Positions 28,228 through 60,983 of a stretch of 64,000 nucleotides of DNA are shown piece by piece. Source of the stretch: Bacteroidota bacterium (GTDB taxonomy: Bacteria > Bacteroidota > Bacteroidia > Bacteroidales > JACABE01); contig JAPLDQ010000012.1 of assembly GCA_026391675.1 (NCBI GenBank), positions 1 to 64,000 of the forward strand. Reading direction: 5' to 3'. Under the pieces are notes generated by a model. The model was not told the DNA's origin and did not search any database. It worked only from the letters and a program-made list of their open reading frames with translations. Both the position numbers and the translations under genes were made by a program. How positions within the stretch are numbered: position 1 is the stretch's first letter; each line of letters starts with the position of its first letter.

Positions 28228-28380
28228 CATTTTTTTATAATAGCCACTAAGGCACAAAGGCACAAAGTTGTAAATAATAAATCAGAATTATTAATTCTTA
28301 TCATCTTAGTGTATTTGTGGTAAATAAAATCAAATTACTTTAATTTAATTCATCACTCATAATTCATAATTCATAACTAT

Positions 28381-39482: not shown

Positions 39483-39923
39483 ATGGCAAGTGTCAGTACC
39501 TATCTTAACTTTCCCCGTCATACCGAGGAAGTTTTCAATTTTTATAAATCAGTTTTTGGTGGTGAGTTCAGCGGTGGCGGTATAGCCCGTCTCGGCGACT
39601 TCCCTCCTTCGGAAGGCATGCCACAACTGGCAGAAGAAGACAAAAACCTCATCATGCATATTGAATTACCCATACTCGGCTGTCATTTGCTGATGGGAAC
39701 AGATGCACCAGAATCCATGGGTTTTAGTGTTAAATATGGCAATAATGTATACATCAACCTGGATCCTGATTCTAAAGCTGAAACGAAAAGGCTTTTCGAT
39801 GCTTTATCAGCCGGCGGCAAAATAGAAATGGAACTTCAGGAAATGTTCTGGGGCGCCTACTATGGCAGCTGTACCGATAAATACGGCATTCAATGGATGT
39901 TTAACTGCACCGCAAAACAATAA
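39483..39923 (+). CDS. VOC family protein (PhnB-like)
   Basis: 146 residues. The pattern VSTYLNFPRHTEEVFNFYKSVFGGEF at the start, a central HIELPILGCHLLMGTDAP, and the final MFWGAYYGSCTDKYGIQWMFNC are diagnostic of the PhnB/YjdN branch of the vicinal-oxygen-chelate superfamily. Most members have no established substrate. The next genes are of the same kind of small, often coregulated protein (SRPBCC, YdeI-like). Confidence 0.88.
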   Translation: MASVSTYLNFPRHTEEVFNFYKSVFGGEFSGGGIARLGDFPPSEGMPQLAEEDKNLIMHIELPILGCHLLMGTDAPESMGFSVKYGNNVYINLDPDSKAETKRLFDALSAGGKIEMELQEMFWGAYYGSCTDKYGIQWMFNCTAKQ

Positions 39924-39927
39924 TAAA

Positions 39928-40094
39928 TTGCCACAAAGGCACGAAGACACAAAGTTTTATTTATTGTTCTTCGTGTTTTTGTAAAATCGTAATTAAATAT
40001 AATATTTTATTGTAAAATAAAACAATAATCAGCTATAGGGGCTTTAGACACTAAATTATAATTTTTATTAGTGCCTTTGTGTCTTTGTAGCAAA
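39928..40094. repeat. Inverted CACAAAG-type repeats bounding a 184-bp gap
   Basis: ATTGCCACAAAGGCAC begins the left end (39927-39954), and GTGCCTTTGTGTCTTTGTAGCAA (40071-40093) is the right end in inverted orientation. Nothing coding is visible between them. A similar run (CACTAAGGCACAAAGGCACAAAG) lies at 28243-28265. Confidence 0.6.
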
Positions 40095-40107: not shown

Positions 40108-40515
40108 ATGAAAATAACTGTTAAAACAAAAGTTCTTGCTCCTATTGAAAAAGCATGGCAATGCTGGACAACTCCTGAAGATATCGTAAAATGGAATTTT
40201 GCCAGCGACGAGTGGCATTGCCCTAAGGCTGAAAATGATTTCCGTCAGCATGGTAAATTTGTTTACCGTATGGAAGCCAAAGACGGAAGTTTTGGCTTTG
40301 ATTTCTGGGGCATCTACGACAATATCGAAAATCAGAAATTAATAGAAATTACCATGGGAGATAACAGAAAACTAAGCATAAGTTTTATTGCTGATGGTGA
40401 TTCTACATTAGTTATTGAAAATTTTGAAGCAGAAGCAATAAACACTGAAGAATTACAAAGAACCGGCTGGCAGGCGATACTGGATAATTTTAAAAAACAT
40501 GTGGAATCTAAATAA
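40108..40515 (+). CDS. SRPBCC (AHSA1-like) domain protein
   Basis: 135 residues. The sequence MKITVKTKVLAPIEKAWQCWTTPEDIVKWNFA is the first strand and helix of the START/AHSA1 fold, and the C-terminal helix (LQRTGWQAILDNFKKHVES) is likewise typical. The fold binds hydrophobic ligands; no specific function can be inferred. A YdeI-like gene starts 19 bp downstream and is probably in the same operon. Confidence 0.88.
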   Translation: MKITVKTKVLAPIEKAWQCWTTPEDIVKWNFASDEWHCPKAENDFRQHGKFVYRMEAKDGSFGFDFWGIYDNIENQKLIEITMGDNRKLSISFIADGDSTLVIENFEAEAINTEELQRTGWQAILDNFKKHVESK

Positions 40516-49681: not shown

Positions 49682-50434
49682 ATGTTACTTAAAATTAAAA
49701 ACTTACATGCCTCAATCAATGGCAAAGAAATTTTAAAAGGTGTAAATCTGGAAGTTAATAAAGGCGAAGTACATGCCATAATGGGACCCAACGGAACGGG
49801 TAAAAGTACGCTGGCTTCGGTAATTGCCGGACGCGAAGTATTTGAAGTAACCAAAGGGGAAGTGCTTTACAAAGGCAAAAATTTACTGGATATACCTGTA
49901 GAAGCGCGTGCCTGTGAAGGCATTTTTCTGGGATTTCAATATCCTGTTGAAATTCCCGGTGTTAGCATGACAAATTTTATGCGTACTGCTGTGAATGAAC
50001 AACGCAAATACCATGGTTTAGATCCAATTCCTTCAGGTGAATTCCTTCGCTTGATGGAAGAAAAGAAGAAGATGGTTGAAATTACCGCCAAACTTACCAA
50101 CCGTTCAGTAAACGAAGGATTTTCGGGTGGTGAAAAGAAGAAAAATGAAATATTTCAAATGGCCATGTTAAATCCGACATTGTCTGTATTGGACGAAACA
50201 GACTCAGGACTTGATATTGATGCCTTACGCATAGTGGCAAATGGCGTTAACAAATTGCGCAGCAAGGAAAATGCAACAATAGTTATCACACATTACCAGC
50301 GATTACTGGATTATATCGTTCCTGATTTTGTACATGTATTGTTCGAAGGCAGAATAGTGAAATCAGGAGGTAAAGAACTCGCACTGGAACTGGAAAGCAA
50401 AGGTTACGAATGGATTAAGGATGGGATTTCATAA
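49682..50434 (+). CDS. sufC: Fe-S cluster assembly ATPase SufC
   Basis: 250 residues. Walker A GPNGTGKST at about 38-46, signature FSGGEKKKNE at about 144-153, Walker B LSVLDETDSGLDID. The FQYPVEIPGVSMTNFM segment is specific to SufC. It drives cluster assembly with SufB and SufD in the cytoplasm. A GxxExxY gene follows before sufD. Confidence 0.97.
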   Translation: MLLKIKNLHASINGKEILKGVNLEVNKGEVHAIMGPNGTGKSTLASVIAGREVFEVTKGEVLYKGKNLLDIPVEARACEGIFLGFQYPVEIPGVSMTNFMRTAVNEQRKYHGLDPIPSGEFLRLMEEKKKMVEITAKLTNRSVNEGFSGGEKKKNEIFQMAMLNPTLSVLDETDSGLDIDALRIVANGVNKLRSKENATIVITHYQRLLDYIVPDFVHVLFEGRIVKSGGKELALELESKGYEWIKDGIS

Positions 50435-50444
50435 ATAATTTATT

Positions 50445-50904
50445 ACACAGAGTTTCACAGAGTTAAAAAAGAGAAATATAATTAACATTATACTTTAAAT
50501 GGAAGAAAATCTGATTACTGAAAAAATAATTGGATGCGCAATTGAAGTTCATCGAAGCTTAGGACCAGGATTATTAGAGTCAGCTTATGAAGAATGTTTA
50601 TATTATGAACTTTGTAATAAAGGATTAAATGTTGAAAGACAAAAGCCAGTCCCTGTAATATATAAAGATATAAAACTTGATTATGGTTATAGGATTGACT
50701 TATTGGTTGAGAATAGAATTGTCATAGAATTAAAAGTTGTTGATGCATTTAATCCTGTCCATGAAGCCCAAATATTAACTTATATGAAGTTTGCTAAAAA
50801 ATCTACCGGTTTATTAATAAATTTCAATGTGAGTTTATTGAAAAATGGAATAAAAAGATATAAACTTTAACAACCTTTGTGTAACTCTGTGAAAATCTCT
50901 GTGT
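50445..50904. mobile_element. Inverted-repeat-bounded cassette containing a GxxExxY gene
   Basis: The left end ACACAGAGTTTCACAGAGTTA (50445-50465) is matched at the right end by its complement TAACTCTGTGAAA (50882-50894) plus a two-base insertion and CTCTGTGT (50897-50904). The unit is about 460 bp and contains one gene. The right end continues with a further TTCTCTGTGAAAC copy at 50905-50917. No target duplication was found by eye. I infer a mobile or once-mobile cassette between sufC and sufD. Confidence 0.65.
50499..50870 (+). CDS. GxxExxY family protein, probable PD-(D/E)xK nuclease-like
   Basis: 123 residues. The name-giving motif is G24-L-L-E27-S-A-Y30. D67 in YRIDLLV and E77-L-K79 in VIELKV form the D...ExK pattern of PD-(D/E)xK nucleases. 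The family is widespread in Bacteroidota in many copies and has no assigned role. It is located within an inverted-repeat-bounded unit between sufC and sufD. A host function in cluster assembly is unlikely. Confidence 0.85.
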   Translation: MEENLITEKIIGCAIEVHRSLGPGLLESAYEECLYYELCNKGLNVERQKPVPVIYKDIKLDYGYRIDLLVENRIVIELKVVDAFNPVHEAQILTYMKFAKKSTGLLINFNVSLLKNGIKRYKL

Positions 50905-50969
50905 TTCTCTGTGAAACATTGATTATCTGCAGATTACACAATCAGTTTGAATTATAAATATTATTATAA

Positions 50970-52382
50970 ATGAAAAATAACTTGAATTCATTTCCTTTAA
51001 GTGATAAATTTATCCATGATTTTGGAGTATATCAGGCTGATATTAAGCGATATGATAATGAAAAAATAGCCCTTTGCCGTGACCAGGCATTTGAACATTT
51101 TTTAAAAATTGGTTTGCCTACCCGTAATCTGGAAGATTGGAAAAATACAGATTTGAGCGAGGTTTACAACGAAAGCTATAATCATTTTTATCATGAATTT
51201 GAAAAAGTTGAAGATATAGATAAGGTTTTTCAGTGCAATGTTCCGCATTTGAACACCATAATGCTGGCTATGCTGAATGGCAGATATGTTTCAAAAGATG
51301 AACAGTTAAAAGTACTACCCAATGGTGTTATTTATGGAAGTTTTGAAGCTGCTTTGCAGCAATATCCTGATCTGGTTGCCAAACACTACGCCAAATATGC
51401 TGATTATACAAAGAATGGATTTACTGCCATAAATACAGCCATGGCTCAGGATGGTTTTTTTATTTATGTTCCTGATGGAATTGAAGTAAAAAAGCCTGTT
51501 CAGATTGTGAATGTAATTCATCATGAACATAATATATGCATACAAACCCGTAACCTCATTGTATTGGGTAAAAATGCAAAACTTACACTTATCCATTGCG
51601 ATGATTCCTATAACCATCAGAAAAGTTTAAGCAATACCATTTCCGAAATCGTACTGGGCGAAAATGCCAGTCTGGACCATTACAAAATGCAAAATGTAAA
51701 CAATGATTCTACATTGATAAATTTTGCATATTTCCATATGGATGCCAATGCCAGATTATGCAGTAATGGCCTGAGCCTGAATGGTGGAATTCTGAAAAAC
51801 AACAATTACGTTAAAATGAATGGCGAGGGTAGCGAATGCAATATTTATGGCTTGTATCTGATGGACAGAAAACAACATATTGATAATCTTGTATATGTTG
51901 AACATCTTAAACCTCACTGCACCAGTAATGAGCTTTTTAAAGGAATTATCGATGATTCAGCTTCAGCTGTATTTAACGGACATGTTATTGTAAGCAAGGA
52001 TGCACAGAAAACCAATGCTTTTCAGAGTAATAAAAACATATTATTAACTGACAAGGCTAAAGTAAATACCAAACCCTTCCTTGAAATCTATGCTGATGAT
52101 GTAAAATGCAGCCATGGTGCTACAGTCGGACAGCTGGATACTGAAGCCATGTTCTATATCCGTTCCAGAGGCATCTCGGAACACAATGCACAAATGTTGC
52201 TGATGTATGCTTTTGCTGATGAAGTTATCCAAAAAATAAGTATCGAAGCATTGAAACACCGTCTGGAAGACATGGTAAAAAAACGTTTAAGGGGCGAACT
52301 CTCTGTATGCGAGCAATGTGTGTTACATTGCAGTAATCCTGAAAAAGAATACAGCTTTGAAATTGACCTGACGAAAATATAA
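50970..52382 (+). CDS. sufD: Fe-S cluster assembly protein SufD
   Basis: 470 residues, similar in fold to SufB. The N-terminal GLPTRNLEDWKNTDLSEVY is the SufD LPtrkdE-W block, FIYVPDGIEVKKPVQIVN is typical, and the C-terminal KTNAFQSNKNILLTDKAKVNTKPFLEIYADDVKCSHGATVG carries the His that works with the SufB Cys. The final YADDVKCSHGATVGQLD is well conserved. It would be third in the suf operon, but is separated from sufC by 535 bp. sufS and sufE are not in the window. Confidence 0.96.
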   Translation: MKNNLNSFPLSDKFIHDFGVYQADIKRYDNEKIALCRDQAFEHFLKIGLPTRNLEDWKNTDLSEVYNESYNHFYHEFEKVEDIDKVFQCNVPHLNTIMLAMLNGRYVSKDEQLKVLPNGVIYGSFEAALQQYPDLVAKHYAKYADYTKNGFTAINTAMAQDGFFIYVPDGIEVKKPVQIVNVIHHEHNICIQTRNLIVLGKNAKLTLIHCDDSYNHQKSLSNTISEIVLGENASLDHYKMQNVNNDSTLINFAYFHMDANARLCSNGLSLNGGILKNNNYVKMNGEGSECNIYGLYLMDRKQHIDNLVYVEHLKPHCTSNELFKGIIDDSASAVFNGHVIVSKDAQKTNAFQSNKNILLTDKAKVNTKPFLEIYADDVKCSHGATVGQLDTEAMFYIRSRGISEHNAQMLLMYAFADEVIQKISIEALKHRLEDMVKKRLRGELSVCEQCVLHCSNPEKEYSFEIDLTKI

Positions 52383-60403: not shown

Positions 60404-60983
60404 TAAACTGATAGTATATCTTTATTTGTAATCAACTGTTGTTTAATTTTTTATATTATAAACGGCTGTAGTTTAATATAGCATTGGTTAAAAAGCTATA
60501 AGAAAATATCACATCTTTTTATTTTGTAATGCAGTATATTTCTTGTCATGCTGTGTTTTAACATTTTGAACTATGCTTGAAGGTACGCTGACAAATTAAT
60601 TAAATCATTGCTTTCTTAATCTCTGCGGCACTTTGCGCCTTCTTTGCGAATCTCTGCGGTAAAAAAAAGTTTAAACGCGGAGAACCGCTGAGTTTTACGC
60701 GGAGAACCGCAAAGATTAAAGGATCATATAGTTTAAACTTTAATGTTATATTTATTATATGATCTTAAATATCAACAATAAACTAAAACTTGTCATTTGT
60801 AACGAAGTGAAGCATCTCATAAATCTGTATTATTTTATTATTGAGATTCCTCACTTCGTTCGGAATGACAAAACAAGCATTTGTCGAACTAAATAAACCG
60901 TGCTGTTCCTATGTTTTCAGTAAAACGTGTGTTTCACTTTCACAGGCTATACTAAACTACATCCTTAAAAAAAATATTCAATA
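60404..60983. repeat. Repeat-rich intergenic region
   Basis: No gene is visible in 580 bp. At 60615-60720 a degenerate inverted unit is made of TCTGCGG and CGCGGAGAACCGC copies (60676-60688 and 60699-60711), with TTAATCTCTGCGG and CCGCAAAGATTAA as outer arms. At 60790-60870 a long imperfect palindrome pairs TTGTCATT, AACGAAGTGA and ATCTCAT with ATTGAGAT, TCACTTCGTT and AATGACA. The second type occurs in many Bacteroidota. Confidence 0.65.

Follow-up and report, generated by a model that had tools for sequence, protein, structure and literature searches.

REPtrons, in which RAYT/TnpA-REP genes go together with REP/BIME repeats (excerpts of PMC2817692 and PMC8266576), are the described systems closest to the arrangement reported here. 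A second precedent is provided by the Rpn proteins (YhgA-like, PF04754): according to excerpts of PMC5350276, rpnC is located between panC and panD, where two separate introductions took place, and a heading of that paper terms RpnA a non-specific DNA endonuclease. A REP survey from 2025 covered two Flavobacterium genomes; in the accessible part of its text the terms “nuclease”, “RAYT” and “CACAGAG” are all absent (PMC12306157). For the protein family considered here, GxxExxY (PF13366), the literature we found assigns no role, two papers naming it just once each and in passing; an excerpt of PMC9756366 names PF13366. Among the best matches of our search, drawn mostly from open-access articles without preprints, we found neither a link between GxxExxY/PF13366 and repeats nor a description of the element.

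We analyzed a stretch of 64,000 nucleotides from a Bacteroidota bacterium (contig JAPLDQ010000012.1), here called the window, in which inverted arrays of short repeats stand on both sides of a GxxExxY gene. We consider it probable that this cassette is a copy of a widespread small inserting bacterial element that consists of a nuclease gene and its own phased repeat arrays.

The GxxExxY cassette in the window

A sequence-only reading of the window had described inverted CACAGAG repeats bounding a single nuclease-like gene between sufC and sufD. Both the arrangement and its position were recovered: the ORF matches TIGR04256 (GxxExxY) with 157.5 bits (curated cut-off 35) and PF13366 with 150.6 bits (cut-off 22), and NCBIfam matches identify the neighbors as sufB, sufC and sufD (Table 1). 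The inverted arrays themselves stood, their layout had to be corrected to two clear units on the left and four on the right, the latter with a start-to-start spacing of 10-12-10. The longest inverted pair of the cassette measures 26 nt and is 85% complementary. By analogy with the outer ends of other cassettes, the element probably begins a few bases left of 50445, at around 50440. The ORF list contains no second ORF in the cassette, and an Rfam search over 50300–51000 gave zero matches.

Table 1. Features of the cassette, its neighbors and the gene-less elements in the window
Feature	Position	Strand	Remarks
Gene-less closed mini-element	28244..28322		CACTAAG/CACAAAG ... CTTAGTG/ATTTGTG; by eye
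Gene-less element	39930..40091		CACAAAG/CACGAAG units, inverted CTTTGTG; by eye; between ORF ending at 39923 and ORF starting at 40108
sufC	49682..50434	+	Host gene, left border of insertion site; TIGR01978, 356 bits
Possible left outer end	50440..50445	+	TTATTA; analogy with TTTAAC-like outer consensus
Left array	50446..50462	+	Two CACAGAG units, 50446–50452 and 50456–50462
GxxExxY gene	50499..50870	+	123 aa; PD-(D/E)XK nuclease family (D67, E77, K79, Q91, Y95)
Right array	50875..50913	-	Four inverted units, 50875–50881, 50885–50891, 50897–50903 and 50907–50913
sufD	50970..52382	+	Host gene, right border of insertion site; TIGR01981, 279 bits
Gene-less abutted pair	60621..60714		Four inverted units followed, after an A/T-rich gap, by four direct ones (CGCGGAG type); within longer GTCAT-type repeat

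Similar repeats elsewhere in the window, also noted in the first reading, are present as the gene-less elements listed in Table 1. When allowing at most one mismatch, the window contains 6 tandem pairs of the form CRCARAGNNNCRCARAG, compared with an expectation of 0.13, and none of 100 shuffles arrives at 6; three of the pairs belong to the GxxExxY cassette and three to the abutted pair. For single CACARAG words the window shows no enrichment: 14 were counted and 12.1 expected, and 35 of 100 shuffles attain 14. Chance or base composition as the source of the arrays is ruled out by the window shuffles together with the control-ORF comparisons described below.

The protein models as a PD-(D/E)XK nuclease that is nearest to a Cas4. 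An AlphaFold2 model (pLDDT 95.3) has its best structural match in 4ic1 SSO0001, which we take to be a Cas4, with a Z-score of 10.1 over 99 residues (next entry 7.9). With Foldseek, alkaline and lambda exonucleases follow after 4ic1, no match falling under an E-value of 0.001. D67 and K79 are kept in all 34 aligned sequences and E27, E77, Q91 and Y95 in at least 90% of them; a QxxxY motif is typical of the Cas4/RecB-type nuclease group. On the sequence level PADLOC returns a weak Cas4 profile match (best E 0.0017, 16.7 bits), the genes beside the window gene being sufC and sufD and not cas genes. Pfam and NCBIfam scans of the window protein yield no Cas4 family at E ≤ 0.001, and PDB sequences searched with a GxxExxY profile give 0 matches up to E 10. 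In 9 of 11 close pairs dN/dS lies between 0.02 and 0.13, four of these nine having a dS above 1 (L004/L043, misaligned, and L087/L088, saturated, were left out).

One GxxExxY lineage without flanking arrays (L042 and L044) has lost Q91 and Y95, L044 also E77. It is possibly a domesticated, inactive form; that missing arrays and missing residues coincide is suggestive, but seen in a single lineage.

Repeat arrays at other GxxExxY genes

Among 198 genomes sampled from one phylum, 101 contain GxxExxY genes, 99 of them with a match above the curated cut-off. The genome of the window alone has four at four places, one of which (L003) contains an internal stop. Using the window protein as query, we obtained no match in 50,697 phage records and only 8 in 72,556 plasmids, and only 2 viral contigs yielded a relative. 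This rarity on phages and plasmids sets the cassette apart from most transposons and speaks against our reading.

The sequence-only reading had supposed that GxxExxY proteins may be mobilised by these repeats or act on them, which a lack of such repeats around other GxxExxY genes would have refuted; the comparison shows, on the contrary, a linkage of gene and array. At least two units C[AG]CN[AG]A[GT] at a distance of 8–13 bp from each other were counted as an array. Among the initial 46 loci, 42 have an array within 250 bp of the gene. For further loci from many phyla an array in any orientation was detected within this distance in 68 of 77, compared with 66 of 692 control ORFs taken from the same loci; the rule was drafted after viewing flanks of both locus sets, so that this count is not blind. 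The 77 loci are what remains of 82 (80 named genome loci and 2 viral contigs) after removal of 5 with flanks under 100 bp. A left array on the plus strand jointly with a right array on the minus strand is found at 35 of the 77 loci and at 4 of the 692 control ORFs. Array density drops from 7.8 per kb within 100 bp of the gene to 0.1–0.2 past 1 kb. Nine of the 77 loci lack an array by the rule, several of them carrying variant units by eye.

Independently of the unit rule we aligned each left flank to the reverse complement of the right flank. In this motif-free test an inverted-repeat score of at least 26 was reached by 51 of 79 loci, compared with 24 of 718 controls and 102 of 929 cross-locus pairs. 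All these loci are the best-scoring ones (80 of 574 confirmed, and from the 198-genome sample top matches only), so that the GxxExxY family at large may differ.

Divergent GxxExxY genes (L158, L217–L221) were judged by eye only. Very different flanking units in a roughly similar layout are found at L158 and L218–L221, e.g. CGGAATNAA (L158), ACAAATNGA (L219) and AAATCCNAT; the gene of L217, which is part of a large Sphingomonas replicon, has fabD and fabG as annotated neighbors on its two sides.

The 179 gene-flanking arrays contain two (81), three (55), four (42) or, once, five units. In four-unit arrays the spacing from outer to inner unit is most often 10-11-10 (17 of 42), followed by 9-11-9 (6). 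The consensus of 170 outer ends leans towards TTTAAC and is weak, with at most 0.49 bit per position. Of the 46 pairs of arrays that abut each other (right array, then left array) at a distance of no more than 60 bp, 27 have a gap of 11–13 bp; 12 of these 27 stem from one genome (G103) and mostly from one MITE family. Closed pairs (plus, then minus) show no peak at 11–13 bp. Abutted ends might reflect circle junctions or elements that arrived in tandem. At one locus (L107) the GxxExxY gene is flanked on one side by five tandem gene-less units of about 100 bp, and on the opposite side a further such unit begins.

Filled and empty sites and the letters of the repeat unit

Orthologous empty sites, a check suggested in the first reading, are present at three different places. 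In five genomes of the same family the sufC/sufD junction contains the cassette in 2 and a short spacer in 3. Of 8 congeners compared at the junction before scpB, 4 have the cassette, 1 has a degraded remnant in which both ends are kept, and 3 are empty. The clearest case comes from Flavobacterium, the genus being inferred from named relatives, and is the junction where methionine aminopeptidase (map) adjoins a methyltransferase-like gene. The methyltransferase-like gene was found in 147 of 150 genomes, and 90 of these together with the named locus L108 gave 91 loci. Among them 38 are empty, meaning that stop and start codons overlap or lie at most 25 bp apart, 33 contain a GxxExxY gene, 3 contain gene-less arrays, 15 something other, and 2 are undetermined; the gene-less group comprises 2 loci assigned by rule and L246 added by eye, which reduced the others from 16 to 15. 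Insertion of the cassette is well supported by this comparison of presence and absence at the same site. No target-site duplication was recognised by eye at the map site, and no base-exact pair of an empty and a filled site was found among the sites compared.

At one locus of this junction (L302) the gene of the cassette is largely deleted, likely a route to gene-less forms. At four further loci (L259, L262, L283 and L291) some 800 bp without GxxExxY separate the two genes; in the first three of these loci we noticed by eye the start of an ORF resembling a zinc ribbon (MNCKTC).

On a tree of the flanking genes (89 rows) parsimony requires at least 19 changes between filled and empty, 13 for clade A and 13 for clade B of the GxxExxY genes at this junction, so the state of the site has changed repeatedly; these counts lump together gains, losses and transfer of the flanks, and support is poor for 31 of 86 inner branches. 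Empty sites group together on the tree (0 of 500 shuffles give so low a count). Clades A and B barely do so (54 and 48 of 500), and transfer of whole junctions between species is therefore possible.

This repeated change at one site bears on the main rival of our reading, a homing-like cassette whose nuclease cuts the empty allele, upon which the cassette is copied by homologous recombination from a donor chromosome, while the arrays protect the filled allele or regulate the enzyme. Such a route accounts for recurrent sites and agrees with the at least 19 flips between filled and empty, with sites common to related species, with the lack of a recognised target duplication, and with some pairs in which, by eye, the spacer of the empty relatives is absent beside the cassette. 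It fits poorly with two GxxExxY clades as well as gene-less arrays at the same site and with four GxxExxY genes at four places in the genome of the window, and it does not predict dispersed gene-less copies. On balance we regard homing as rather unlikely.

Returning to the inserting element, we analyzed whether the letters of the repeat unit follow the protein. At the map junction, with clade membership assigned by best BLAST match, the seventh letter of the unit is G in 94 of 110 units of clade A (17 cassettes; A in 14, T in 2) and T in 77 of 79 units of clade B (16 cassettes, 14 with units; A in 2). Exceptions are L223 and L234 of clade B, which have no callable unit, and L228 of clade A, the units of which end only in A. 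Across a tree of 135 proteins, 110 with a callable unit, letters 2, 5 and 7 need 14, 21 and 3 changes compared with shuffled means of 30.9, 29.8 and 13.4 (0 of 300 shuffles as low for each letter). Letter 4 shows no clear fit to this tree (7 of 300 shuffles as low).

The covariation of unit and protein shown by this comparison persists between cassettes with unrelated neighbors: after removing 77 of 5,995 pairs for a common neighbor gene, protein identity correlates with unit match (Mantel r 0.42, 0 of 500 permutations). Among the pairs kept, letters 2, 5 and 7 are all identical in 2% of the 864 pairs with 30–45% protein identity and in 58% of the 225 pairs above 70%. Unit and gene therefore travel or evolve together across sites. 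We infer direct recognition of the unit by the nuclease as the reason; joint inheritance without contact could be enough. The four GxxExxY genes in the genome of the window have tandem units on at least one side, by eye of the types CACAGAG, CGCAGAG, CACTGAT and CGCAGAT. Since the units differ between these genes and between the two clades at the map site, a genome-wide repeat that merely happens to lie near GxxExxY was rejected.

Gene-less arrays, proposed mechanism and known systems

The comparison further shows that arrays are in excess where the gene is present. Within the 198 genomes of the phylum, at least three copies of CRCARAGNNNCRCARAG are found in 29 of the 101 that contain GxxExxY (2 of the 101 below the curated cut-off) and in 0 of the 97 that lack it. 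The pattern, which covers CRCARAG units only, is matched 468 times in genomes with the gene (reversed control 16), including gene-flanking arrays and 73 matches from the genome of the window, compared with 27 times in genomes without it (control 24). In five genomes picked for many matches, 36 of 39 stretches of 0.6–1.5 kb around tandem-pair matches contain no GxxExxY match.

In the genome of the window we counted 37 exact matches of CACAGAGNNNCACAGAG and none of the reversed pattern. Most of the copies inspected sit in a MITE of about 155 bp with the terminal inverted repeat AGAGGCTGTCTCAAAA, all 18 copies of which lie near array matches by coordinates. This MITE (L005–L033, L312–L319, L326–L329) carries an abutted pair of GxxExxY-type arrays inside; a longer parent was not seen among these loci. 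In a second MITE-like family with GTCATTC-type ends (window 60540–60800; L320–L324) the abutted arrays are of the CGCAGAG type, and a third, similar MITE family with an abutted pair is present in G103 (L176–L191). As many gene-less copies in the genome of the window lie inside MITEs with other ends, they are no proof of arrays moved by GxxExxY, and another transposase may have moved those inside MITEs. Solo CACAGAG pairs were not accepted as direct products of GxxExxY, since most of those inspected lie in a MITE with its own ends.

From this it could be argued that gene and arrays are passengers, moved throughout by an unrelated transposase or integrase, with GxxExxY doing another job such as repair or defence. 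The arrays inside MITEs with AGAGGCTGTCTCAAAA or GTCATTC-type ends, the similar MITE in G103 and the weak Cas4 matches of PADLOC (best E 0.0017) are in line with this explanation. In the gene-bearing flanks inspected, which were read unsystematically, we saw neither another terminal repeat nor a second gene, and a passenger would not be required to have unit letters that covary with its protein. We consider a passenger improbable, and more so than homing.

Of the cassettes, 82 of 97 are located between neighbors on the same strand, some of the 97 sharing a site and thus not being independent, compared with 535 of 761 ORF pairs elsewhere, for which a longer minimum ORF was used. Of the 82, 73 are co-oriented with their neighbors, as if the gene were transcribed from the host operon. 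That the arrays are operators or terminators which allow a host-beneficial, itself immobile nuclease gene to sit in operons would agree with this orientation and the low dN/dS, but is hardly credible given the excess of tandem pairs in genomes with the gene, their control level in genomes without it and the recurrent presence and absence at orthologous sites.

For the inserting element we propose the following mechanism, in which the nuclease may bind, cut or move its repeats. The element would comprise one PD-(D/E)XK gene whose product has a Cas4/lambda-exonuclease-like core, with an array of up to four 7-bp units on either side, the two arrays being inverted and their units spaced by roughly one turn of the helix; each nuclease subfamily has its own unit sequence. 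Nuclease protomers would bind the units side by side on one face of the DNA, four phased units per end, pair both ends and cleave at the A/T-rich outer ends or close to them. DNA released or copied in this way would then enter a new site, in most cases between genes on the same strand and without recognised target duplication, with host repair completing the joining; gene-less copies would use the protein in trans. The broader claim, on which we are evenly divided, is that many phyla contain a class of mobile elements that would need, apart from host repair, nothing but a small Cas4-fold nuclease and helically phased arrays of the 7-bp unit recognised by it; these would spread the gene as well as gene-less copies, with no known type of transposase or recombinase involved. 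A common protein family would gain a testable function through its tie to repeats and dispersed gene-less arrays a likely partner gene, and the covariation of unit and protein offers ready-made specificity swaps.

The element resembles insertion sequences and MITEs in being small and inverted-ended, in having gene-bearing and gene-less forms and in its orthologous empty sites. It differs from them in that the nuclease is the sole gene of the window cassette, in having arrays of sub-repeats instead of one terminal inverted repeat, and in that no duplication was recognised. With Cas4/RecB-type nucleases (4ic1 SSO0001, lambda exonuclease) it shares the predicted fold and the D...ExK and QxxxY residues; the window gene differs in having no adjoining cas gene and in encoding only 123 aa. 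The likeness to Rpn is that of a PD-(D/E)XK nuclease gene arriving repeatedly in an operon junction (excerpts of PMC5350276). The Pfam family is another one, since the window protein does not match PF04754 and a Pfam scan at E ≤ 0.001 gives PF13366 only, and in the accessible text of PMC5350276 repeat arrays were not found (“inverted” 0 times, “repeat” once, in the reference list).

With REPtrons, as described in the excerpts of PMC2817692 and PMC8266576, the cassette shares the layout of one gene enclosed by inverted repeats, the covariation of these repeats with the protein, a repeat number that tracks the presence of the gene, and gene-less repeats in inverted pairs and tandem rows. The differences concern protein, repeats and mobility. 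The REPtron protein is a HUH tyrosine transposase related to IS200/IS605, whereas GxxExxY is of the PD-(D/E)XK type; at E ≤ 0.001 the window protein matches only TIGR04256 and PF13366, and thus no HUH family. REPtron repeats are GTAG-tagged hairpins, in contrast to the up to four direct 7-bp units with a spacing of about 10 bp in GxxExxY arrays. Finally, tnpA-REP genes are mostly present in one copy with no evidence of mobility in these excerpts, whereas GxxExxY has several copies per genome and clear presence and absence of the cassette. The GxxExxY cassette is therefore REPtron-like in its working and not a member of the REPtrons, its protein not being HUH and its repeats not being REPs; it would be their nuclease-based counterpart.
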